Shown here: in pieces, positions 47,798 through 64,000 of the stretch
How the letters are laid out: every line of letters begins with the position of its first letter
How positions within the stretch are numbered: position 1 is the first letter of the stretch
DNA from: Clavaria fumosa
Taxonomy: Eukaryota; Basidiomycota; Agaricomycetes; Agaricales; Clavariaceae
Length of the DNA stretch: 64,000 nucleotides
Assembly (NCBI GenBank): GCA_951802425.1
Contig: OX637794.1
Location: 3,658,001 to 3,722,000 of the forward strand
Reading direction: 5' to 3'
Made by a program: the position numbers and the translations under genes
The notes under the pieces: model-generated
The model's input: only the letters and a program-made list of their open reading frames with translations
The model's database searches: none
Told to the model about the DNA's origin: nothing

Positions 47798-48600
47798 TTA
47801 AAAATCCGGATGCGTTTTCTGAAGTTTGAGGTTTTTCCGGATCGGGATACGCTCTTTTGTCGGTACGGTGATCCTTTCTCCAGTGTTCGGATCGTTCAGG
47901 ATCAGGTCTTGGGCACCATGAGGATGGTCGATAGTTTGGGAGCCGGTAAGCATAAAGAACGGGCGTCCGACGAGGACCTTGCAAGGTAGGGTATCGGCGA
48001 CCTGCATTTGGACGTGAAACGTGCATGGACCGATCTGCAGGGGAAAGTTCTTTATTAATCCGAGCGTCGGGGCGATGGTACCGTGTGAGGACTCCATATG
48101 AATTACACACTCAGAGTGCAGCGGATTACCGAGCTTCTCCCAAACGTCTCTTCGCATTGCCACGATCGAGCTGCCTTGGTCGAGCAGGCACTCCGCAGTG
48201 ATCCGGCTATCCAATATGCCTTCTATGATGCGGAGCAGAGTGGCATCGACAGCTACAACAAGATCGGAGGTGTCCGGCGCTGTAATGTTTGTATAAAGCG
48301 TATCCTGTACGACGGACGCAGTGACCGGAACACGGCAGGCTGTAACCATATCTTTCATCTTTTTGCGGATATCCCCGGAAATAGCGAGGAGCTCGCGGGG
48401 GGTGACTCAGACCGGTATATGCAGTGCGCAATCGAAGACCTGTTGGACTGTACCCTGATTTTCAATAGGAGCTTGGTAATGGTATTGCACATCGGAGCGT
48501 TCGGCTTTCTCGGGCTTCGAAGGGCGGGTCGCCGGAGGTGTGGGGATGGCAACGGATTAGCGTTTTTCAGGGGTCCGAACTTCTTCTTTCCCTTGTCCAT
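47798..48600 (-). pseudogene. pol: Protease region of element I
   Basis: ECLLDQGSSIVAMRRDVWEK has D-Q-G-S in place of D-S/T-G, a variant seen in this gypsy group. Downstream, LPCKVLVGRPFFMLTGSQTI is the usual C-terminal retropepsin segment. It lies in a different frame from both gag and RT, and the frame ends at 47798. A Lys-rich linker precedes it (about 48560-48620). Confidence 0.7.
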
Positions 48601-48627
48601 CTTCTTGGCTACCTCCATTGTAAATGT

Positions 48628-50052
48628 TCAAACCATTCTTTCAAGCGTCTCTTCATCATCAAATGCATCTCCGGATGGTTCCTCGGCTTCGGTAACAGAA
48701 TCTGAAGGATCAGGTGGTTGGGCTTCATAAATGGCCGTGGTCGTCGGCTGTGTGTTCTGTGACTGGTATGTTGCGTAATATTTATAAAAATGCTCCGATA
48801 GGTTGTTTCCTGCAATAGTGCCTGGCAAATATCATCCGGAAGGCAGGCAAATCCTGCCCTCTGTATTCCGAATGCATTTGCCGGACTTGATGTATTCAAG
48901 GGCCTTCGGACAGGCACTAACAAAATGACCTAGTTCCAAACAGAAATTACACGTCCGGCCTGCAGGGGAATTCGTCATCCGAGGAGCGGAATGTCTTGCT
49001 GGTTTGAGAGACTTGGCTGATAAAATTGATTCGAGGCGAGCCATTGTGGAAGCGAATGTTGCCAAGGCTGCGGCCATATCAAACTCTTCCTTCTTGACCA
49101 CCGGTTTCGTTTCTCTCCTGGGGGCTGAAGATGCGAAGCGGACGGGTCCGGAGAATTGATTGGTTGTTGCAGAGTGCGGGGACGTCGAAGAGAGTAGGAA
49201 CTCGGCTGCTGCGTGTACTTCGTTCATGGGGTATGGATCCTCCGGATGGTGATTTGGTAGTATAATAGCGAGCCGGCTTTCGATCCGGCGTCTTGTATGA
49301 TCCCCAAATCCGAGGATGTAAAGTCGGTTTCTGTCATTTATAGACATACGTTGGGAAGTGATCAAGTGCGAGGTAATCTGGAGAAAGTCCCGGTAGTATT
49401 CTCCGTGTTCTGCGCACATGTAAACTCCCTTTTGCGCCGAGTCCGATATGAAACGGTCCAAATCAGCGATAGAAAACAAGCGACCGCCATCGGAACCTGG
49501 GTAAAGATGTCGGACAGCCGCTTTGAAGGTTTCCCAAGTCCATTCCGGATCCGGGGCTGGTGTGAGGGTCTCCCAGAGGAGGCATGTGTCTGTGTCGAGG
49601 TAATGCTTGGCGTACCGAATTAAATCGGCTTCTGGAACGTCTGGATTAATGCCGGTGAGTACAATGTCGATGTCCTCGAAGTACCAGTTGAGGTGTGTCG
49701 GTACTCCGTCGAAGGCAGGAGCCCCGTGAGCGCCACGGAGCGGATATCTCGGTTGATTTGCCATTTGGATTGGTGCGTGGGGAAGTTCTTGTGTGGCGTC
49801 GAGAGGGTTCTGTGGTTCGTCCGTTGGAAGTTGTAAGGTGTTCGGTTCGAGGGGTAGTGGAGTGAGTGGCAAGTGCGGTTCTTCGAAGATTGTTGGTATT
49901 GTGATAGCCGGGGTTGCAAAACTGGTGTGAGAATATACGATTGATGAAATACTAGGGATATTCGATGGAAGAAGATGAGAAGTTTCGATAATCTCTCCGG
50001 AGGGTTCGATATACGATGTATCCGGTATTGGATGCAGGTTCCGAGCTTTCAA
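48628..50052 (-). pseudogene. gag: gag of element I
   Basis: The open frame 50052-48832 encodes about 406 residues. The N-terminal third is Pro/Ser-rich. The capsid-like region holds VPTHLNWYFEDIDIVLTG, TWETFKAAVRHLYPGSDG and DRNRLYILGFGDHTRRRIES. A zinc knuckle CNFCLELGHFVSAC (about 48915-48955) follows. A TGA at 48832 after LPSG is followed by more coding-like sequence (YLPGTIAGNN) to about 48628, so the stop is probably a mutation. It precedes protease on the same strand. Confidence 0.82.
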
Positions 50053-50153
50053 GCGTTCGGACCGTCGAAGCTGAGGAGCGGATGAACCTCTAGGGATCCT
50101 TGAGGGTGGTAGTGAAGACGTCTTGTTGAACGCCTCGCGGTGGGCTCCAGAAT

Positions 50154-50851
50154 TGTAATGGGTAATACGGTTCTTGCTGCAACTGCTTGATTACAGTCAA
50201 GTTCTTCAGGGGTTCCTGTAAAGCGTTTAAGATTCACCAAACACCCTTGAGGATGTGGAGTGTGAGTTCAAAATATGTGAGGAACAGAAATATACGATGT
50301 CCAGAATATTCGGCTATGTGTCCGATAAAATCCGATAAAAGTGATGCGATAAGACGAAGGGCCAGCAATGACGGAGGCCAGCAGATCAAAAGTTGCAATG
50401 ACAAGTGAACTTAAGGGAGGTCTCTAAGAGACAGAGGGGGTCCAGAAAGCTCTATTTCAGAAAAGTCTGAAGTGTGCTTGAGTACAGTTCTGTAAGTACA
50501 GCAAATTGGAATGTACGGAAATGTCCGGAAAACATATGGAACAGCGCCATGTCGCATGAAGGGTTATATGGAGGAGTTATATCACAAGGGAATTGAGTAG
50601 CTCGGAGGAATGAAATGTCCGATGAGTAGCACATGTCCGGACCGCTCGTAAACTGAAGGAAAGTGGGGTTGGTACAGCAAAGGGGTACTAGGAACAATGG
50701 GCAAAGTACTGCAAAGGGTTTGAAACATTCAAATGATTGAATGGTTGAAAGGGATCACAATATGAAATTTACAGCATGTTATATGAAACATAGGAATGGG
50801 AATGGAATAGTGAGTATGTCGAGTGCTGACCATGCTGGAGTGATGAAGTAG
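50154..50851 (-). repeat. Right LTR of element I (698 bp)
   Basis: It repeats 41204-41901 at equal length. Differences are mostly C/T and G/A transitions, in line with CpG decay after insertion. Confidence 0.85.
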
Positions 50852-51130
50852 TTCTGGTGGGATAGGGGGTTTGAGCGGCTCTCCGGTTGAGGTGAATACT
50901 CCGGAGATTCGTAAGAATTTCGCGATGGCAAGTAGTCCTTTGGTACCGCTGAGCGGGATTGGCGGAGAGTGGTCGCGATGCACTTCCGATAGTATGTGTC
51001 GGTGTTCGTCGTATGCTCGGCAATTATGGAATATATGGTCTATGTATCTCGTCGCTGGAGTTGTTGGGATCGTGTCTCCACAGAGGCATTCGGGCTCGTG
51101 AGGTATTTTCATATATTGTGATGCTATCAT
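50852..51130 (-). pseudogene. Remnant of a LINE reverse transcriptase C-terminus
   Basis: The frame contains ECLCGDTIPTTPATRYIDHI, FHNCRAYDEHRHIL and GTKGLLAIAKFLRISGVFTS. This is the zinc-finger and conserved tail seen at the end of many basidiomycete non-LTR reverse transcriptases. The rest of the LINE is absent, and the LTR of element I cuts its 3' end. It is too short to say more than the class. Confidence 0.65.
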
Positions 51131-51663
51131 ATGACAGGCACACAGTACAGCATTGATGGCAGAGGATAGTCATTTAGAGAAGTTCAATCAGAGTAGCTGG
51201 TAACAAGGCAATGTGAGAGCCAGTGTCATCTAGGCCTTTATGTTGGCCCTGATATATGCCTCATTAATTGATGAATGGGCCATTGAGCAATGTATTAGCC
51301 ACAGTTATGTAGGCCTATATGTTCATTACTACAAATTTACAATTCGGCCAACATGCAGTCTTCGCAGGTAATACATTTTTCAGGCTGGGCCTACACATTT
51401 GCCCAATGATGTCTCTTGATTGGCCCTCATGTATGCCTCATTAATTGATGATTGGGCCGTTGAATCAGCATTTATATACTGCAACATTGGCAAAGACAAA
51501 GACACGGTTGTATGTATGGTACGTATTTATGAGATAAAGGATGAAGTGGGGACAGAGGTATGTGGCATGGGTTTGTAGGTTATATTGCCATTATTTAGTG
51601 TGGGTCAGGCGGTTAGGTCAGATATCCATGTTCCTTCATATGTGAAGGAACAGATGCTTTACA
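51131..51663. other. Gene-free stretch with a 44-base direct repeat
   Basis: A 44-base segment starting TTGGCCCT, with GCCTCATTAATTGATGA inside, occurs at 51243-51286 and again, with a few changes, at 51420-51463. The stretch also holds several GGCC-flanked short segments. It is probably the 3' flank of the neighbouring minus-strand gene. No ORF of note. Confidence 0.6.
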
Positions 51664-53240
51664 CTACTGTTGATTTATAATTAGCCAGCGCCCTCCAAAA
51701 ATTTCGCCTCCCAGCCAAACTTTCTCCTCAGGTGCATTGAAGATAAGTTTGTTGGTGCACTGCGGATTTCGACAAGCAAATATTCTCGCCCCAGCATTAC
51801 CAGTAGATGAGACCCAGGAGCGGATGCAGCCACAAGCCTTGCACTGCACTGGGAGCTGATTTCCCCAAGGGCGAAGCTCAGGGTGAACCCACATATAACG
51901 AGCACCACGTATTTGTCCCTCTCTTGCCTGGAGATGGACGATGTCGGTGTGGCAACAAATTGCTGATGTCGCAGGTAGGAGCCTCCAGAGACAGTCCTCC
52001 AGAGGGAATCCCTCCACCAGAACTTGCTGGGCGTAGCCAACTACAAACCCTGCCGTAAGGCAAGGTTGCAGCTCAGCGGCTGTGAATGCGATGACATCCG
52101 AAATCAAAAGGCTGGAAATTTTGATTAATTAGCAAATTGAGAGTGCTAGTTATTGTCTTACCGCTTGGTTGCCTCTGCTAGCTCTGAATAACTATGGAAG
52201 TTCTTGACTAATGTTCCACAGGACATCATCCACAATGTGACCTCTGCCCCTTTGAGGAATGTCAAGTGGGCAGGTGGGAGGAGGACATCGAGAAACTAAG
52301 GCTTCAAATTAGCTGGAGGCAGATGCATTGTAAACAAACTCACGGGTTTGACCTGGGTGCATAACCCAGGTGAAAGAAAGAGGTCGCCAGTGTCATCATG
52401 AGAATGATTTGTAATAAAAATTACGACATGGGGATGTTTATTTCTGTGAAAATGGTTAGTACAATATGATATGAAACAGAAAGCTCATACTGAATCTTAT
52501 GCACCAAGCTCTTCATGTACTCTGCGTGCAAATTGATAAGGATGTCATTGGCAAGATCGAACACAACCTCTTCATACTGCAACACCTCATCTCCAAGATA
52601 CGACCGCATATAGTCAGCGAGAAGTCTTGCCGGCGTTCCAGCATGATCCATTCCTTTGAGGAGAAAGTGCAAGACAAGTAGTCCCTTGTTGCTGACACGA
52701 GAATTTGCAGTCATTTGAAAATTGCCTACTACCTTGAGAGGTTGTGCAAACGCTGGTCGCAATCTTGCCGTGTCGGGCTTCCCGTCGATGATGTCGAGGC
52801 CCTTTGTCAAATAGAACCCCTACAATGCAAAGATAAGAGAACGAAACAGAATAAGTAAATCAATGCTCACATAATATGGGCTGAGGGTGGTCCTTTGAAA
52901 GACCGAGCGTGGCAGGTGAGACACATGAACTTGAGGTGTTCGGTGTCAATCGAAGTTGGGACAGTGAGGCATTTTGTGCATAGCGCCTGAGCACAGTAAT
53001 CACAGACAAAAAGAAAACCACCATTAAGGCACATGTAGCAGAACTGTGGAAAAAGTTTATTGTTTTGTACCAGTGCTCAGAGCAAAGGCGAATACTCACA
53101 TTTTCACCCTCACTAGCAAATTCTGGTCTAACCAGCACTGTAGAAGTAGCTGTCATTCTTGTGGATACAGCTGACCCTGGGACAATGCGGAGAGCGTGAC
53201 CGCTGGTACTTCTCTGTGCTGTTTGTTTGTTTCGAGCCAT
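51664..53240 (-). CDS. H3-tail-mimic, PHD-like zinc finger, putative caspase-like protein
   Basis: I read six exons: 53240-53100, 53043-52871, 52819-52491, 52443-52344, 52295-52162 and 52111-51664, about 440 residues. The start gives M-ARNKQTAQRSTSG, identical to the histone H3 N-terminus at 9 of its first 13 positions, Lys4 included. Exon 2 has a PHD-like finger (C-x2-C-x8-C-x2-C-x4-C-x2-C-x15-C-x2-C, with GGFLFVCDYC). Exon 4 has HVVIFITNHSHDDTGDLF and exon 5 TLWMMSCG, about 45 residues apart. This matches the His and Cys strand ends and spacing of caspase-like peptidases. Exon 6 ends in a zinc ribbon (CKACGC, FACRNPQC). Introns 1, 3, 4 and 5 are phase-consistent; intron 2 is not with the obvious GTGAGC donor, so a splice variant or a one-base lesion is possible. 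The protease call is inference; the H3-like start and cysteine patterns are direct. Confidence 0.72.
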
Positions 53241-53585
53241 TGCGAGGGGGATAAGCACTAAGAGAGAGTGAGGGTCATGCATATATAATGTTTTCCAGAT
53301 CACCTTGACTACAACAATACAAGACTACATCTCTTGAATAGGGGAGGTTCAGTCGACAGTGGTACCACACAACGATTAGACAGAGGGGAGAACAAGGTGT
53401 GAAGCAATAAGTTCAGACAAGAAGGAAGTTTCTATAACTACCAGGGTAGGCAAGTACAATGATTGGACAAAGGGGGAACAAGACATGTTCAGACCAGGAA
53501 GGACTACTGTATGTGTAGTTACAAAGGCACAACAAGAATATATCCAAGGCTGGGACAAAGCATCAAGAGAGCGTGATGAGTGTTG
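53241..53585. other. Upstream region of the H3-tail-mimic gene
   Basis: About 350 bases with no ORF worth calling. It should hold the promoter of the minus-strand gene; I see no clear TATA box. Confidence 0.5.
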
Positions 53586-54067
53586 AGAAGGGCTAATGCT
53601 CAAACGTTCTCTCGTTTACTTGTGTCTATAATAATTCTCATTCACTTGTTTATAGTTGTCCCTTTGTGTCTACCTGCTCTCCTCTCCTTGTATTTACCTA
53701 CTGGTGCCGTCGTGCCCTCTTGGCATTCGTGCTATGGCCCTGTAGCGGATACTTGCGGAGACAAGACCTTGTGCATGCCTGCCACTGCCATGCTGTCCCG
53801 CCCTGCCCTGCTGCCACCGCTGCTCCCTTTCCCCACCCTGACGCTCTGCTTCTGCCCTGTCCCTGCTGCCACCAATGGCCCCAGTCCCCGCCATTGGTCT
53901 GTGACCACTGTTGGGGGCTTGGGCCATTGCTGCCGCATGCTGCAGCCGCAGCCGCCACCACTGTCATTGCCGCCACATACAAATGGCGTAAACTGATGAA
54001 AAACACTCCCTTCACAGGATGTGTGATGACAGCAGAGGGTGCATGGCTTCGAAGCCACTAGCCCTGC

Positions 54068-54085
54068 TTAGGGTTAGGGTTAGGG
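54068..54085 (+). repeat. Interstitial telomere-like array (TTAGGG)3
   Basis: Three perfect TTAGGG units, the telomere repeat of most basidiomycetes, within an internal region. Confidence 0.9.
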
Positions 54086-54415
54086 CTGCAAAACTGCATA
54101 AGTTACAGTATGATTTCTTTATATCATCTTCATTTCAAAAAAAGTGTCAAGTACAAATAATTTACAAGTCTAGTGTAAAACGTATCAAAAAGAAAACCAT
54201 GTCAGGCATTTACGTCAGAGGATGGGTGGCCAAATCCACCTCTGACTAGCCATTCACATTGCAATATATGCTTCATTGCAAAGAGGGCACTGCAATCTAA
54301 GCAGTGCCCCACTTCACTGAAGCAAGAGTTCCCCCCAGTCTCGAGTAGATAAAAAAAATGGACTTACTGATTGTTGTCCATAAGAGAGGGAATCTGTAAG
54401 AAACTGGGGTGGGAG

Positions 54416-54640
54416 GACGCTAAGCACATGGCAGCTAGCAGTCCATCCCGGAGCCCATACGGCAACCCCAAGGTATGAGTGGGGTGAGAGGACGCTAACC
54501 ACATGGCGGCTAGCAGTCCATCCCAGAGCCCATACGGCAACCCCAAGGTATGAGTGGGGTGAGAGGACGCTAACCACATGGCGGCTAGCAGTCCATCTTG
54601 GAGCCCATATGGCAACCCCAGGGTATGAGCACAAGCAAGG
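54416..54640. repeat. 75-bp tandem repeat, about 3 units
   Basis: Units start at 54416, 54491 and 54566 with GACGCTAA(C/G)CACATGGC and contain CCATACGGCAACCCCA. The minus-strand frame stays open across them as a 25-residue repeat, but I see no other sign of coding. Confidence 0.88.
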
Positions 54641-55789
54641 CAAAATCACTTACAATGATGAGGGGTTGGGGGAGGTCGTCTGCATAATAGATGACACTCA
54701 CATCCTTGGCCCAATTGGCCACCCCAGGTGGGTATGAATGAGGGTTGGTTGGGGCCGGCTCGCATCTAAGCTGCCACAAAACCAAAAGGCCCATACAGCC
54801 ACCCTCTTCACATAAAATTCTGAAAAACCACATCAACGAGCACCACATCGACCAATAATGAGTCGCATTGGAATACACGCACCTCTGCAGGTGTCAAGCT
54901 AAGAGACACCTGATGACAGACAAGGGCAGCATTCCCTGTGCGGCACTGCAGTTGCCGCACAGAGAATGCTGTCCCTGTCCATCACGAACCATAAAATAGA
55001 TGTCCCAGGCGGCGTGGCAGGAGGCTCGGTGGGCGGGTAGACAGGGGAAACAAGGCGGACAAGAGTGACAAGGCGGACAAGAGCGATGAGGCGGACAAGA
55101 GTGACGAGGCGGACGAGAGCAAGGTGATGGAGCGGAAGACAAAAGATGGTGTGACCATCTTTTGTTTGTTTGTTTGATATCTAAGGCGATTCAACATTTG
55201 GCTCTGTTTGTTTATATTGATATGTCACATGATCTCAATAAATTACATGATCACATGTTGCCTTCTCACTGCCCTGCTCACTCCTGCCATGCCTCACCCA
55301 CTCGCTCCTCGCTCTGCCGCGTCTGACCCGCTTCTCGACCACCCACTCTCTGCTCTGCTAATTCCAGTGCACCCAGTGCCCTGCTTCTGCCGCTTAGTGC
55401 ACCCTGCACCCTGCCCACACCGCTTAGCACACCCTGCACTCCATCCACAACACCTGGCGCACCCCGCGTTCCATCCACACTGCCTGGGCCCTGCATATGC
55501 CATCTGGTGCACCCTGTACTCTGCCTACACCAACCCCGCCTTACTGCCCACTCCCAACCTCATGTCATCAATGGTGCGTTGTTATCCCATCCCCCTTCTC
55601 CCCTTGCTACTCTTTCAGCCTCACAGCAACCACGGCGGCAGCATCAACGACAACGACAACGATGGTTGCATGGCCAGCAACGACGGCGGTGATGACAGTG
55701 GTGGCGGCGGCGGCTGCATGGCCAGTGACGACGACAACGGCGGCAGCAGCAGCGGCCAGCGATGACGACAGCGGCGGCGGCGGCGGCAC

Positions 55790-56130
55790 AGCAGCATGCG
55801 GCAGAAATGGCCCAAGCCCCCAACAGTGGTCATAGACCAATGTCAGGGACTGGGGCCATTGCGGCAGCGGCAGCAGCAGCAACAATGATGGCTACGTGGC
55901 CAGCGACGACAACGACGACGACAGCAGCGGCCATCAATAGTGACGATCGTGATGGCTGCATGGCCAGCAATGACGACGGTGGCGGCGGCGCAGCAGCAGC
56001 AGCATTGGCACGGCCAGCAAGGACGACGAGGACGGCGGCGGCAGCGGTGGCGCGGCAGCATGCAGTGATAATGGCCCAAGCCCCCAACAGTGGTCATAGA
56101 CCAATGGCAGGGACTGGGGCCATTGGGCAA
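55790..56130 (+). repeat. 70-base dispersed repeat, two direct copies plus one inverted at 53877-53950
   Basis: The segment ATGGCCCAAGCCCCCAACAG, with GACTGGGGCCATTG further on, occurs at about 55806 and about 56070. It occurs inverted at about 53880-53935. The flanking triplet runs are also partly mirrored, hinting at an inverted duplication of about 2 kb. Confidence 0.75.
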
Positions 56131-56922
56131 GGAGCGGCTGGGCGGAGAGTGGCAGTAGGAGCAGCAGGGCAGGGAATGGCAGCAGGGTGTGGAATGTGGA
56201 ACCGGGGTGGCGGCAGGGCGGGGAATGGGTGGGCGACGAGCAGGTCACAGAATTGGTTGGCGACAAGCAGGTCAGGATGGGAAGCGGGTCAGGGATCAGG
56301 GACAGTAGCAAGGCATGGAGGAACAGAGGTGGCAGCAGGGAGGAGGGAGCAGGGGCAGCAGCACGGCGGTGATGCATGACAGATCGAGGGTGGCAGCAGG
56401 GCGGGGAGTGCGACCGGGCAGGGAGTGTGGCAGATGAAGAGCATGGCAGGGTGGGGACCATGGCGGGGCAGGGAGCAGGCCGTTCCCTGCCCCATCAGAC
56501 ACATGATGAAGCAGACCAATCAGGATCAGGGGTGGCGGCAGGGCAGGGAGTGATGAGATGGGGGTGATGTAACGCAACAGGGGATGGCGGTGGTCAGGAG
56601 GTGGAGGAAGTCTCCAAGGACAGGAAGGTGTCATCCAGCGGGGACGCCTAGTGCTGATATCGCTGAAAATTGTACTACAAATGACATTATTTTTCTCATG
56701 TTACCTTTCCTTTCATTTCAGAGCCTTCTGTGCTCATACACTTCCATGTCATTAGAGGGAGACCACCCGGATTGTGCTACATTCAGATTTCAAGCAGAAG
56801 CACAAGAGCAGAGGCCCGTGACAGTGTAACAGTGGGGATCCCGGGCACTGCCACCGTCAATTTCATCCTTTTTTAGTACTTGAATCCTTGTTACTTGAAC
56901 TCACTCCCAAACCACACTTTCA

Positions 56923-59900
56923 ATGTCTACTTCGATGAACAAATCCTCTTCCTCGACAAGCAAAATGTCGACTTCAGCATTGCTCACCATCTTCGATCCC
57001 CAAACAGTCTGCACGAGTGCTGTTTTCCAAAACTATCCTTGGTTGACCGACATCATCATGAAGCCTGGACTTCTGGAAAGCAACATTGCTACTTGGCTGG
57101 GACAGCACCACAACTTAGGAGAGGAGCAAGTTTCCCTCTGCAAGGTTCAATTCAAACTTATAAACTTAGGATTATTTGCTTATCAAAGCTAATCGTCTAG
57201 TCGATCGCTCAGTCTTTGGATCGTTTTGGACCTGGAAGCACGGCACTGAAGAAGGAAAGAGCAGTCAACAAATACTTCCGGGCATCATACAGTGACTTGG
57301 TTAGCAGAGAGAAATGGGAGAAACACGACACATCGGCTCTCATGAGCGCTGCTCATTTCGTTTTTCGTCATGCCCTTTTGGACCGCTTGGCATTTTCGAT
57401 TGTTGAGGCTCCTCCATCCCAGCTAACGCCTCGATCTGAATTGCCTAAGATGCCCAAGAAGTTTAGCGATGTGCGTTAAATTTCTTTCCCTTATTCCAAG
57501 TTTCTTATCTTTCATAGTATATTGGTACCATTAAGGATTGGCTCAAGCCCATTGAAAAAGCACATGGGTCTCAAAGCTTTCAAGCCATGGATCCATTGAC
57601 GAATTCTGCGGCGTATTTTGGCACCTCCCTTCCTGCACACCCTTCGCCAAAGCAGGAACAACTGATCAAAGCTGTAAAGTTCCTTGGTGGGGGCCTGGAA
57701 CGAATGCGAGACATCCAGGTCAAGTCCATACTTCTAAACTTTGAGATGATGGCATTTGCCATCACTTGGTTTGGCTTGGTTTGTGTCCAGCAATTTTTTT
57801 GTTGGGAATTATAACTAACATTCTCTCAGAATAATGCCACAGGTTTTGCTGAGTCAACCCAGGACTGGGTCAATATTTTAAATGAGTGAGAGCAACATAG
57901 TTTGCCTTATCCAAATTTCCAACTAAGTTTTTTCACACAGACAATTAGAAAGTGAGGGTCTTCCTCTGTCTTCCAGCCTTGTCTCAAGGCTCACAGATCC
58001 ACGTCTTGGCCCGATGCTCTTCGAGCATGTGTGCAGACTCTTCCACTACTGCCTCTCTGTCAGTCCCCTTTTTGCCCTGACAACAAGGGCATTTGACCAG
58101 TCGCAACTGCGACAAAGTTTCTTGGTATCGGTGAGTGCCTCATTTTTATGTCAGATTGTGTTTATGAAACAGGCAATATAGACTGCAATGTACTTGGGTA
58201 ACGAAAAGCCTGCGTTTTTGGGATTGATGGAGAAAGCACTGTGGAGAGCTCTGATGCAAACAAGCATCACCGGCAACTCATCAGCGGCCCTGAATGGCTT
58301 CCTTACAGAGTTTCAAGACCTTCAGGTGCAGTTCAAGGGGCCAGAAATTCAGATGGATTGGTATTCTCCATCCCGTATGTTATTTTGATCTTTTTGTCCC
58401 TGAATGAAACTGACTGCAAAGAAAGGGCAAGTCCAACGTGTCATCACAGCTCCCGAACCATGTTCCATCGAAGAAGAAGCAGAGCCCATCATTGCTCCTG
58501 AAGCTGGTCCCCCGGAGCATGTCGAAGACATCATTCCTGCTCTGGAAGCAGATCCCCAGGGCGTCACTTCTGCTCATGAAGCAGGTCTGATTGAGCAAAC
58601 ACCAATTTTCCCCATGCTCGAATACGACCAGCAGGAGCTCTCAGACACTCAAGACGCTGAAGAAGCTGAAGGTGCATTGGAGAAGCCACTGAAACACAAG
58701 GTTCATCGTCCAATGCGAAGGGCAGCAAAGAGACTCCGGCATGAATCAGACCAGGAGAATAAGGATGACAAGTTGATCCCCAATGAGGAAGCTGTGATGA
58801 GGAAAGGGAAAGGAAAGGCGACACAGGATACACATGTGGGCCAAGGCAAGACAAAGCCACCTGGACCCATCCACCAGGGTAGAAAGGCTGCCTTGAAGCC
58901 AATTCGGAGTATCATTGACCTGACGGTCAAGGTATGACTTATATTGACACCCCAACAAATGCTGATTGAATTGTTTTATTTAGCATGTAGAGAAAGTGGA
59001 GGAGCTCTCCTCTTTACCCCTCCCCAAGGTAAGCAAAATCTCAACTACTGCGTAATATTTTAATTCACACAATGCAGATGGAGAATCACTCCATCAAAGT
59101 CAAAATGTATGATGCAAATCCTGATACCGAGCCAACCATCTATGAGCATTTCACGACTTCAGATTCAGTACGTTTAACACTTTTTTTCATGGATATCTCT
59201 CAAAATAAAGCAGGCATTCCACGAGTATCCTGTCCTAATGGACATAATAGAAATGGTCGAAGAGGAATATGTCAATCAGGTCCCTAAGCATCGTCTTCCA
59301 ACTGCCAGGTCGCAAACATTCCATCCAGATGCGTCTGTGATATTCGTCACAACCTGGACTGAGTTCATGAAGATGACTAGTCTGGAAATTCAAGAGGTGT
59401 TCCGTCGTCGACATATTCTTATTACGAATACGCCAATTTCAACCCTCGACTTTGATGAGGAGGGATTATCGACGTTGGCTCCTCTACATCAGGAATGTGT
59501 GTTCCAAGGTGAGTCTAAAATATTTTTCAAGTTGATTCATCTAAGTCAGCTTCTATAGTTGCAGAGATGTGAAAGCACTCTGATGCAAATCTGCTCCGCA
59601 CTGGGACACTCCACAATTTGCTGGAGTCAACACATGATGTTACAAAACGACGGATTTTGAATGGCCTTGACTTCCCGATGGGAAGCCTCAGCCTCCCTCC
59701 ACCACCTCGATTCAGGCATGTCCCATTTGTTGCTCTGACACATGACAACTGAAACAATAACTAAATCAGCGCTTTTGCAACTCATGAGTGGGCACGCCAC
59801 CAAACCCAAAAGATGGATGGCTTCGCAAACCAACCTGACAAAGACGACCTGATCTGGGGCATTGCAGCCACTGGTGGGACCATCAGCATGCCCCATATTG

Positions 59901-61181
59901 ATGATGTTGGCCTTGCAGTTGTTTCGACTGTCATGTCAGGGTCAAAGTGGTGGGTGGTGATGCGCCGCCGTACAGACGCAGAAGACTACGACTATCGCGG
60001 CAATATCTTTTCGACGCATGCCTTCCCCCTCAGTTGGGGTGATTGTAGCACCGGAAAAGAGTTTTTATGTGCGGAGGCTATACACCTGAAGACAGGAGAT
60101 ATTTTGTGAGTTGCAATAATTATCACGTGCAATATTTACTGACAATCCTACAGTTTCATGCGTCCTGGCACACTCCATTTTGTGCTTGGCCCAGAGCCGA
60201 CGATTGTTTACGGCCGGCACTTTTATTCCGCATCCACGATAGCTCACAGCTGTGCTTCAGCCCTGCATACATTTGTGCTCAACCCAATAATCACCAATCA
60301 AGAGCACCAATTGACAACCACATACTTGTGCAAGATGATGGCGGTCTGGGTTGAGCACTATGTCACGGGGAAATCCAAATATGGTAGAATCTCTCCATCA
60401 TTATGTATGTCATCTGATAATTGTTTTAGCATTTGGTGAGGCACTTGCCCACATCCCCGATGTCACAACAAGACATGGACTCCTCAATATTATCATGGTG
60501 GGGAACATGCTTGAATTTGCGATAGCCCTTGGCCTCAAGTCACATGGGAGGAAACCACTGCCTGAAATACTTGAAGAGCAAAATGTTGCGATGTGGCGAT
60601 ACCGCATCTTCCAGAGCTGGTTCATCGAACGATACATTCTTGAGATTGGTGGTCAAGGGGTGAACCCATCATATCTCTTCTACAAATTGCTCATCCAGTT
60701 TGGCACGGCACTTTGTTCTTACATGAAAAGGTGGGAGAAAAAGGCACCACTCACAATCACTGCACAGCAGGTGATTGCAGCAGTGCTTGAGCACCTTCGG
60801 AAAGACTGGCAAGACCTTCTGGATGCCTTCCAGAAGTTGCTCCATGACGATACCAGTGCTGGTAATTGGTTCTCCTGGGATGGCCCTGACTTCCACATAT
60901 TTCCCCGCGACAATACTCAGGTTTGGACGGAGCTGGAAGATTTGCTGGATGATCCAATTTATGAACAGGTCTCTGAAGAAGAGCAAGAGGACAGTGATGC
61001 AGGAGATGACCATTCTGAGTTGGGGACAATACGTTCTAAGAGGCCCCTCTCCCCGCATGATGGTATGTGTTTCATTATATACTTTCATCTAGATGCAGCA
61101 GATTTTCTAATCAATACAACAGATAATTCAGACATGGAATCGATGGTCCATGTGAGACAGAGGCGCGGTTTCAATGCCTGA
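56923..61181 (+). CDS. JmjC-domain-like oxygenase, multi-exon
   Basis: The start is at ATG 56923 (MSTSMNKSSSSTSKM). More than ten short exons follow to TGA 61179-61181. The N-terminal half is helical and unrecognised. A charged linker with basic stretches (MRRAAKRLRHESDQ, about 58710) and KGKGKATQ follows. The core has THEWARHQTQKMDGFANQ, LIWGIAATGGTISMPHIDD (His 59894-59896, Asp 59900-59902), SGSKWWVVMRRR and, in the next exon, RPGTLHFVLG (His 60176-60178). This gives the HxD...H iron triad and likely 2-oxoglutarate Lys of the JmjC/cupin fold. The C-terminal region (60430-61062) is helical with an acidic tail. One intron looks GC-AG (about 59717-59769). A TGA at 59570-59572 falls in the natural frame just after an acceptor; unless splicing avoids it, the copy is a pseudogene. 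Substrate unknown; histone or protein hydroxylation/demethylation is the family expectation. Confidence 0.75.
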
Positions 61182-61512
61182 CCCTAGCCATTGATTTTGA
61201 TTAGACATAGAATAGAGCACATGTACTAGGAAGCACCGACTGAGTCATCGGAACCCTTGCTTGATGTATATATGCATTTACTTTTTTTGAAAGAAACTAA
61301 CAGTTCGTAATGGCTGTGAGATGTGACTGCTGTGGAATTTCGTACATTAAAAAAATACACAAGGCTCACATACTCAAAGGACATTTTGCATATTGTTATG
61401 GAGAGTTACGGTCACAGTGTGACTGTCACACCCGGGGTCCCGGGCACAGCCTCAGCAAGTCACAGTCACAACGTGTGACAAGTGACTCACATGAGCCAAG
61501 TTATTTTCTCAC
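61182..61512. other. Intergenic region
   Basis: No gene is called here. It contains imperfect GTGACTGTCACAC/GTCACAGTCACA short inverted stretches at about 61416-61480. Confidence 0.5.
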
Positions 61513-61575
61513 GTGACACACCACTTCTTGCTTCCCAACAATGCCACTGCTTTATCAGTTAGGCTAGCAAAGAAA

Positions 61576-63683
61576 ATGACACAGTGGACGACCCCAGAGT
61601 ATACCAAAATACTCACAGAAAGTCTTGTAGCCTACAGACAGGCAAACTCAAAAGACCGCCTCGAAATTGTCAAGCAAATCAAAGCGAAAATCAAGGATTC
61701 AGCTGAGCAGGACAACAAATGTGTCCCAGAGGATCTTAGCACCATAACCTATGCATTTTATGTGTCTCCTGAGTTGATTTGATGTTTGTCTGTTCATAGA
61801 AAATTCACAATTGGCTCCACAATAACCGCAGGGCTGTCAGTGGAGGGGAGGAGTTTTCTGGTTCAGAAGATGATGGCAACCAAGGCCTTCAGTTCAGCAA
61901 ACGACAGAGGTGGACCCTCCAGCGTGTTGTGGAGCAGTGCAAGAAGGGGATTATCAATGCCAGGGCCCAGGAGTTGTCAAATGCTGAGAGGGGATCAGTC
62001 CAGTTCCTCAGCTCATATCGTCATGCTAGGACTGAGATTTGTCAAGAGCTAACACAAGAGGAGCATCAGAAATACATGGGGTTGGTGGAGAAATGGAATA
62101 GGGAGCCTGTCCCAGTTCCTGTGCAGAGAGAGTGAGTATTTTAATTTACCTTTCTCAACCAGTAGAATGGCTGAAATGTTGCTTGGAGATTGGCTTCTCG
62201 CAAATTTATGCATGAGGCCCTGAAGTTTGCCCGTTTTGCAAAGGAGCAGATGGGTGTTGAATTATTTATGTTGACTGGCTGGCAAGATGAGAAAGGGAAT
62301 ATAAAGAAGACAAAGTGAGTCTCAATTGCATGCCCACTGGTCCATCAGATTAATTCTCTGTATACATGCTCCAGGATTCAGACCCCTGGACCTGTGACTA
62401 GTGGGTTCAAGGTACAATTTCACAAAGTTGGTTGTGAGGTGTGGGAGGAGTGGGATAAATATTTGGCTGAGACATGGAATGGTGAGAAAATGATGTGAAG
62501 CCAAGGTTGGGGAAGTACTGACAGGATTTCAGATGAGTTACAAAGGAAGCCTTTTGTTGATGAAGAGGAGATGCTATCAAGGAAAGGAAGAGATATTAGT
62601 GTGCCATGGGATTTGCTAACAGATCATGAGGGATGGCCCATTCTTCCTTTAGAACTCAACCTACCACTCGCACAACTCAAAGAAATTTTGCGGTCATTTT
62701 TTACTATCACTTATCGTGAGTCTGTCTTGCTCAATAGTCCAAGTCTGACAAGTTACTTCCAACATGTAGGCAATACAACAAAAAACAAGAAGGTTGCTGT
62801 CCCTTGGCAACTGATAGCTGATGCTCCACACAAGTTTATTCCTCATGAATACCTTCCAGAGGGAATGCAAATTTGCAAGCCTTCAAAAATGCAATATGTC
62901 AATGTCAGAAGGCTCTGTGATTTCCTGCATCACTGACAGACTTTGGGCCAGAAAATATTACGGTTTCAATATGTTCTCCCACAGCACCAGAGAGGGAAGC
63001 CATCAAGGCATCTAGTCAACTATCACCAGCAACCTGAACAAGAGCCATCATTGTCATCTGACAAAGAGGTGAAGAGGCTCTCCCTCAAGAAGGGGAAAGA
63101 ACGAGAGGTCCAGCCTGTCCATATCAGTACTGAGTGAGTGTTCTCATATCATCATTATCATCATCATCATCATCATCAATGCACATTTGAAATGCACATA
63201 GTGAGGACATTGGCTCAGATGAGTCAGACAGTGATTTGGGGTGCATCTATGATGGGGATAATGATGATAGGGTTGAGGCTTCTGTTCCCCCTGATAGTGA
63301 TGCAGAAGAATCCTGTCTGAGCAAGCAGGTGGATATGTGAAGGGATGATGGTATTGAGGGGAATGGGTTAGAAGGTGACCATGACAGGCAACATCCAGGT
63401 GAGAATTTTCCAGTCCAGCATAAATACAATACAGATAATGGAATTTTGGACAGGAGAACAAGGGATGTGGGATGATGTGGGTGTGCATAGAGATGTTCAT
63501 GGCCTTGTTGCTCATATGGCAGTTCAGATCCACAAGGAGGCAGGGCCCAGCCTGCCCAATAGGAAAAGGGTATACCATGATGAAGAGGAGGAGGAGAGGT
63601 CTAAGCAATATAGGACCAGGGCTAGAGAGAGGGCTTCCATGAATGCCAAGAAGCGGGTACTGCGACCAAGGGTGAAGCACTGA
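61576..63683 (+). CDS. Uncharacterised multi-exon gene with homeodomain-like helix
   Basis: The start is taken at ATG 61576 (MTQWTTPEYTKILTES); an in-frame ATG at 61513 is possible. Exon 1 is helical and Lys-rich. Exon 2 begins KIHNWLHNNRRAVSGG, reminiscent of the WFxNRR recognition helix of homeodomains, and continues with RQRWTLQRVVEQCKKG. Later exons contain EALKFARFAKEQMGVELFM, DISVPWDLLTDHEGWPILPL and YFQHVGNTTKNKKVAVPWQL. The 3' end encodes an acidic stretch (SDESDSDLGCIYDGDNDD) and a basic tail. Possible stops at 62496-62498 and 62934-62936 can be read as lying in introns ending CTGACAG; the TGA at about 63338 cannot easily. It may be a decayed member of a repeated fungal family. Function unknown. 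Confidence 0.5.
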
Positions 63684-64000
63684 AAATCATCCTTGACACT
63701 GGTGACAGTCATTTGTAGTGCATATCAATCTGCATGATGTCTCACTAGGTCCTAATAATTCTTTGCAATCTGTCCTTTTGTGGTGCCTATAGTTTGGCCC
63801 TTTCTAAGGAATTTCAGATAATGATCCACTTCCTGAATCAGTCAGCTTTGCATTAGATCATTGAAGAACCTGTGCCTATCAGAAAGCATATTTGAGTCTT
63901 GTTATTAGATGCATCATGTTGTTCAGAAGATTCATACCTTTATAAGCAATATCTGATAATAATATCCTCCTTCATTATTCCCACTGGATTGTTGAAGGTG
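63684..64000. other. Right edge, no feature seen
   Basis: AT-rich, without a recognisable ORF or repeat. Probably the 3' flank of the preceding gene. Confidence 0.5.

Follow-up and report, generated by a model that had tools for sequence, protein, structure and literature searches.

We analysed a stretch of 64,000 nucleotides from the agaricomycete Clavaria fumosa (contig OX637794.1, positions 3,658,001 to 3,722,000; hereafter the window), which carries on its minus strand, at 51664..53240, a six-exon gene encoding an N-terminus that resembles the tail of histone H3, a PHD-type finger and a domain with a conserved His and Cys. Exon 1 (53100..53240) encodes the tail and a linker and begins with MARNKQTAQRSTSG; the H3-like start itself, MARNKQTAQRSTSGHALR (53187..53240), has homologous counterparts in other gene families. 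A finger with eight Cys (52909..53043) lies within exon 2 (52871..53043), and exon 3 (52491..52819) encodes the first half of a predicted alpha/beta domain. The conserved His (52404-52406) is found in exon 4 (52344..52443) and the conserved Cys (52218-52220), 46 residues away, in exon 5 (52162..52295), while exon 6 (51664..52111) encodes the C-terminal region with a zinc-ribbon-like Cys motif (51757-51843). All introns are of the GT-AG type and approximately 50 nt long. An earlier note, made from the letters of the window, had described this layout correctly, including the PHD spacing of the finger, the six exons, the zinc ribbon and a distance of about 45 residues between His and Cys.

Related genes were grouped by eye into families, with the window gene in family A. 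The six exons and their phases recur in families B and F, with an exon 4 of 100 nt and an exon 5 of 134 nt, except for one B copy (L034) in which exon 4 is 96 nt. The earlier note did not recognize that the gene is transposon cargo and that the copy in the window is broken. Exon 2 of this copy lacks a base, downstream of the finger, that is present in the other copies read, and the resulting frameshift puts the His/Cys region out of frame with the start. Eight copies were read first: L001, L003 and L008 have an uninterrupted frame, L002, L005 and L004 (the window copy) are broken, and two were left unparsed.

The first 13 residues after Met of the window gene are identical to H3 at nine positions, as the earlier note had counted, with a fixed-start probability of approximately 8e-9. 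The commonest form of the tail in family A, MARNKQTAQRSTGGRALR, was present in 8 of the 20 rows with a start that were obtained from 25 loci looked at, two of these rows being one locus seen twice. The window tail differs from it by CpG transitions, with Ser12 and His14 in place of Gly12 and Arg14. By eye, the differences in the tail between family A copies (L009-L031) are mostly C-to-T or G-to-A at CpG. These changes look mostly like methylation decay, despite the TET gene carried by the element (see below).

H3-like starts of the MARNKQ, MARTKQ or MPRTKQ type were found in seven families (A, B, F, G, H, J and K). Family B starts with MARTKQTPKKSTGGRALR and shares 62% identity with A over exons 3-6, while family F starts with MARTKQTAKTSTGSPSVR and is 31% identical to A overall and 26% over exons 3-6. 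The starts of the remaining families are MARTKQNPKKTTSG in G, with MARTTQTPKKTTDS at another G locus, MPRTKQSASRSTGA in H, MARTRQSAKRSSGA in K and MARTKQSAKRSSGA in J, and these four families share 21-24% identity with A over exons 3-6. Homologues without such a start, which the earlier note had counted as evidence against its reading, make up two of the nine families read. Family D begins with MASRSQKRRLPTKEEL in our own exon assignment, and in family E, the first exon of which was not established, no H3-like start was found upstream of the finger. Both D and E are closer to A (40-44% identity) than are the tail-bearing families F to K (21-31%). With regard to the start codon, in B, G and H no in-frame ATG separates the H3-like Met from the stop before it; in family A one is present 14 codons upstream. 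Seven relatives were found among metagenome proteins, one of which (P0008) starts with MARTKQSAKRSSGAPATRATL and is called from an ATG further upstream than the H3-like Met.

A short tail could resemble H3 by chance or through an annotation artefact, and the weakest rows, K and L074, which match H3 at 7 of 13 positions, are unremarkable genome-wide if taken alone. Several results nevertheless make this explanation hardly credible. Of 13 residues, between 7 (K and G2) and 11 (family B, with a fixed-start probability of 4e-12) are identical to H3, the start recurs in seven of nine families, and the independent metagenome protein P0008 shares it. The pattern M-A-R-x-K-Q-T occurs at 28 places in the genome, assigned by coordinates and codons to 18 family A, 5 family B and 3 family F genes and to the 2 host H3 genes; the reversed control gave none. 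The pattern M-[AP]-R-T-K-Q occurs at 51 places (control 0), at least 42 of which are followed within 2 kb on the same strand by a gene body of this superfamily; the other nine comprise 2 host H3 genes, 1 place with Ser at position 2, 1 unrelated place and 5 with family-type starts. These genes thus have what is expected of an H3 N-terminal mimic, an ART/NKQT-type start directly after Met that is above chance and conserved. As a side observation, both host H3 genes (C3:2275108 and C8:1131616) have an apparent intron within the G13 codon, and this position lies near the end of the best-kept part of the mimics.

The H3-like start, the conservation of which the earlier note proposed to look for, is kept by selection in the seven families. 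In a comparison of seven tail rows (A, B, F, G, G2, K and H), made before family J was read, R2, Q5 and R17 were invariant. The earlier note had suggested selection on the part around K4; the invariant residues are not confined to that part, and K4, although mostly kept, is replaced by R in a K locus and by T in locus L074. The proportion of synonymous differences in the tail codons was 0.68-1.07, against 0.13-0.34 for nonsynonymous differences (15 pairs; rows A, B, F, G, K and H), so that synonymous sites are near saturation while the residues are kept. Considering that this holds across divergent families, we conclude that the tail is old and under selection, and does not represent a recent capture.

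The finger has eight zinc ligands in a PHD-like spacing, C-x2-C-x8-9-C-x2-C-x4-C-x1-2-C-...-C-x2-C, as aligned in five families. Searching the PDB with a single finger sequence gave CHD4, TRIM66, PHF21A, AIRE, SP140 and ATRX as the best matches (E 0.001-0.005), and a profile of the five families gave CHD4 at 2e-10, PHF21A at 1.5e-7, AIRE at 6e-5 and ATRX at 0.013. The fingers of CHD4, PHF21A, AIRE and ATRX are readers of H3 unmethylated at K4. The PHDs of CHD4, PHF21A (BHC80) and AIRE and the ADD of ATRX share with the transposon finger the Cys pattern, a GG-x-h-x-x-C-D motif and a lead-in of acid-x-aromatic-Cys. They differ in that the transposon finger sits behind an H3-like N-terminus and that the rest of the protein is dissimilar. 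Besides, its fifth ligand is Cys where a PHD usually has His, as is the case in ADD domains. An acidic residue three positions before the first Cys and an aromatic one directly before it were found in A (GENFC), B (GEQYC) and F (HDNWC), and the inferred splicing gives the same arrangement for H, J and K (NDEWC) and for G (NDRWC). In the tail-less families D and E the lead-in is SQRC and TQRC, with S or T replacing the acid and R replacing the aromatic residue. The linker between tail and finger is approximately 25 residues or longer. Considering that the tail is kept in seven families and that the finger is nearest to readers of the H3 N-terminus, binding of the one by the other, which the earlier note had proposed, may well be inferred from the sequences.

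The His and the Cys are both kept in the nine tail-bearing loci in which this region was read (A, B, F, J and K, and two each of G and H), while D and E have lost the Cys, and D the His as well. The earlier note took this domain for a putative caspase-like peptidase that could be held off by the contact between tail and finger, which would make the protein a chromatin-sensing protease or cell-death switch. CHAT and caspase (clan CD) peptidases likewise place a His and a Cys after successive strands, here in a predicted alpha/beta domain, although for the transposon protein there is no support at the sequence level and the fold support is weak. The Pfam families CHAT and C14 gave no match to these genes, and a profile comparison with the CHAT proteins of the same genome returned a probability of 0.1% and a score of 13.1, with at least 10 of 40 shuffles scoring higher. 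Structural comparisons pointed in part weakly to a caspase-haemoglobinase fold with a His/Cys dyad and were in part unspecific. Both structure models had a mean predicted local distance difference test (pLDDT) score of 50; the fold matches of the B model were interleaved with unrelated folds, all with Z < 8, and those of the G model were generic Rossmann-like folds. A caspase-like fold of the predicted domain is thus unproven, nothing ties the gene to cell death, and a protease or cell-death switch seems very improbable to us.

The tail, the acidic residue close to the finger and the Cys are jointly absent in D and E. Since these two families are nearer to A than F to K are, the tail was probably lost together with the acid and the Cys, and the joint absence fits a single functional unit. 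On the other hand, the tail may act between molecules, with the tail of one protein bound to the finger of another or to a nearby tail-less D or E protein, which would give an oligomer or heterodimer on chromatin, for instance in the choice of target sites. A paralogue with the tail is often located close to a gene lacking both tail and Cys: among the matches listed, and at a distance of up to 10 kb, 4 of 5 E copies have an F match and 6 of 12 D copies a J-type start. However, neither the acid nor the aromatic residue precedes the first Cys in the D and E fingers, which therefore look like poor tail binders, and the A and B elements read have one such gene each. Assembly or tethering in trans therefore appears unlikely. 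We also observed such pairs of neighbouring genes at C9:2155247-2160900 and similar E copies, and at D copies with J starts, in which one gene has neither tail nor Cys and the other has tail, His and Cys.

The H3-tail gene recurs as accessory cargo in KDZ (Kyakuja-like) DNA transposons. Its 1.7-kb region gave 19 matches of nearly full length at 93-100% identity, that of the window itself included. For positions 50848-58000 of the window, four other places show an almost complete match at 98%; for positions 55000-64000, eight others show a complete one at 97-98%, and there are additional partial matches. The window holds a fragment of a KDZ/TET transposon repeat (50848..64000, 97-98% identical to fuller copies) that runs past its right end and includes, at 61311..64000, the inner part of the terminal inverted repeat of approximately 3.7 kb. 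An exemplar element (C1:5224838-5251066) is 26,229 bp long, has the termini CACCCCC...GGGGGTG (CA..TG) and is flanked on both sides by the 7-bp target duplication ACTGCGC, as checked in this one element. The outer 1,167 bp of its inverted ends are 99.9% identical between arms; the left arm extends over 3,698 bp, its inner part being matched to the arm of the window copy (98.9%) and not to its own other arm. The left half of the exemplar encodes a CxC2 domain (PF18803, 2e-27), a KDZ transposase (PF18758, 1e-30) and Tet_JBP (PF12851, 1.8e-18). The window copy is without this half, and the nearest KDZ and TET matches are 72 kb and 74 kb away, respectively.

Across the genome, families A, B, D, E and F together count 46 gene copies, 43 of which are within 20 kb of a TET match, compared with approximately 5% expected at a random place. 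Within 15 kb, at least 33 of the 42 superfamily starts mentioned above have a KDZ match and at least 18 a TET match. Among the matches listed, 15 of 20 MPRTKQ-type (H) starts are within 7 kb of KDZ and 1 within 15 kb of TET, and the gene is therefore not tied to TET. In the passages of PMC12730594 considered, TET-bearing Kyakuja (KDZ) elements of Agaricomycetes are described with CA..TG ends and a 7-bp target duplication, which the exemplar shares together with Tet_JBP and a KDZ transposase with CxC2. The Laccaria families (Kyakuja-1/2_LB) are reported there to be without terminal inverted repeats, in contrast to the Clavaria element with its inverted repeats of about 3.7 kb and its H3-tail/PHD gene. 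Given these long inverted repeats, the assignment to Kyakuja rather than to another KDZ lineage rests on the ends and the duplication. The main text of the same paper does not mention PHD, caspase or JmjC, and uses the word histone four times, the passage shown being from the introduction.

Other features of the window touch the same element. A different repeat (48000..50851), with a gag-like zinc-knuckle open reading frame recognized by eye (48832-50190, minus strand), abuts the transposon fragment. Within the fragment, a multi-exon gene on the plus strand (59178-61181) with PHIDDVGLAVVSTVMSGSKWWVVM appears JmjC/cupin-like by eye; Pfam and PDB searches with this gene gave no match. The terminal inverted repeat contains a 212-aa open reading frame (L043:2714-3349, minus strand; approximately 62.5-63 kb in the window) with a sub-threshold match to the GTF2I repeat (E 0.0025). 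Three tandem 75-bp repeats, 91-95% alike, are located at 54405-54629, and a short telomere-like TTAGGG run at approximately 54068-54086 lies inside the transposon.

The presence of a TET gene alongside makes a role of the tail as bait the chief rival to self-regulation of the protein. The tail would then attract host enzymes and readers of the H3 tail, such as H3K4 and H3K9 methyltransferases, an LSD1-type demethylase or heterochromatin readers, and their titration or recruitment would let the element escape silencing, the finger merely bringing the protein to chromatin. The TET/JBP gene of such elements has been proposed to counter silencing (PMC12730594, in the passages considered), histone mimics of viruses are known, and the residues kept in the tail (R2, Q5 and R17, mostly K4, and S or T at 10 and 11) are consistent with a bait. 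Such a bait would have no need of the acid close to the finger, which is absent together with the tail and the Cys, and K9 is retained in the B, G and G2 rows only. We consider this decoy rather improbable, though a serious contender.

Instead, we favour, tentatively and at a little short of an even chance, a self-regulated reader of the H3 tail that carries its own tail as a built-in pseudo-ligand. Removal of Met would expose an H3-like N-terminus (ARNKQT/ARTKQT...STGG...R), which would bind the finger of the same protein, a putative PHD relative reading H3 unmethylated at K4. The tail-bound finger, and perhaps also the attached His/Cys domain, would be held closed until competing nucleosomal H3 tails, or modification of the mimic tail by host enzymes, release it. 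In this way the element might tie a step of its life cycle, such as the choice of target or the relief of silencing with the TET enzyme, to the state of chromatin. Intramolecular mimicry would be the most economical mechanism for these genes; binding of tail and finger in cis, a regulatory role and an enzymatic activity are what we infer.

Several observations weigh against this reading. Apart from the exchanges of K4 noted above, T3 is N in family A, and K9 and K14 are mostly lost, with the few rows retaining K9 being those already named. The rows K and L074 resemble H3 poorly, two families (D and E) are without the tail, and the joint loss, resting on these two families, is suggestive rather than statistical. 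As to the finger, its single-sequence similarity is weak (best E 0.001), and Pfam PHD was below the cut-off (B finger best at 21.0 bits vs 24) or absent (F finger). The profile list also includes, at 3e-4 to 5e-4, NSD2, NSD3 and a finger of the FYVE type, and besides these rabphilin and TAF3; none of the five is known to read H3 unmethylated at K4.

Two known systems are close to the proposed mechanism. In BAZ2B, an internal histone-mimicking linker competes with H3 for the protein's own PHD, according to the part of PMC5663869 considered. As in BAZ2B, the mimic of the transposon protein is in the same polypeptide as a finger resembling those that read unmodified H3; the BAZ2B mimic is an internal, lysine-rich linker in a host protein, while that of the transposon is a near-copy of the true H3 N-terminus. 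The engineered fusion of H3.3, a linker and the BRD1 PHD in PDB 2l43, as far as its entry describes it, has the same order of tail, linker and PHD, but it was made in the laboratory, whereas the transposon fusion is natural and conserved.

Viruses and a few host regulators are the main known sources of histone mimics, and in the open-licence literature searched we found no report of a histone-tail mimic encoded by a transposon. The founding KDZ-TET paper (Iyer et al. 2014, PNAS) is said to mention additional proteins in such elements, and an earlier notice of this gene is possible. The results obtained here indicate that, in dozens of copies and several divergent families, a transposon has retained a close imitation of the H3 N-terminus beside a finger resembling its readers, often next to a TET-type enzyme. 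It is possible, although we would not wager on it, that transposon lineages with and without TET encode an H3 tail, a linker and a reader of K4-unmethylated H3 joined to a His/Cys enzyme, which switches itself or occupies the silencing machinery of the host. If tail and finger do bind, these genes would allow intramolecular histone mimicry to be studied in a natural setting, and likewise the ways in which transposons sense or defeat H3-based silencing. Overall, this would be a selfish element that uses a counterfeit histone tail to control itself or to deceive its host.
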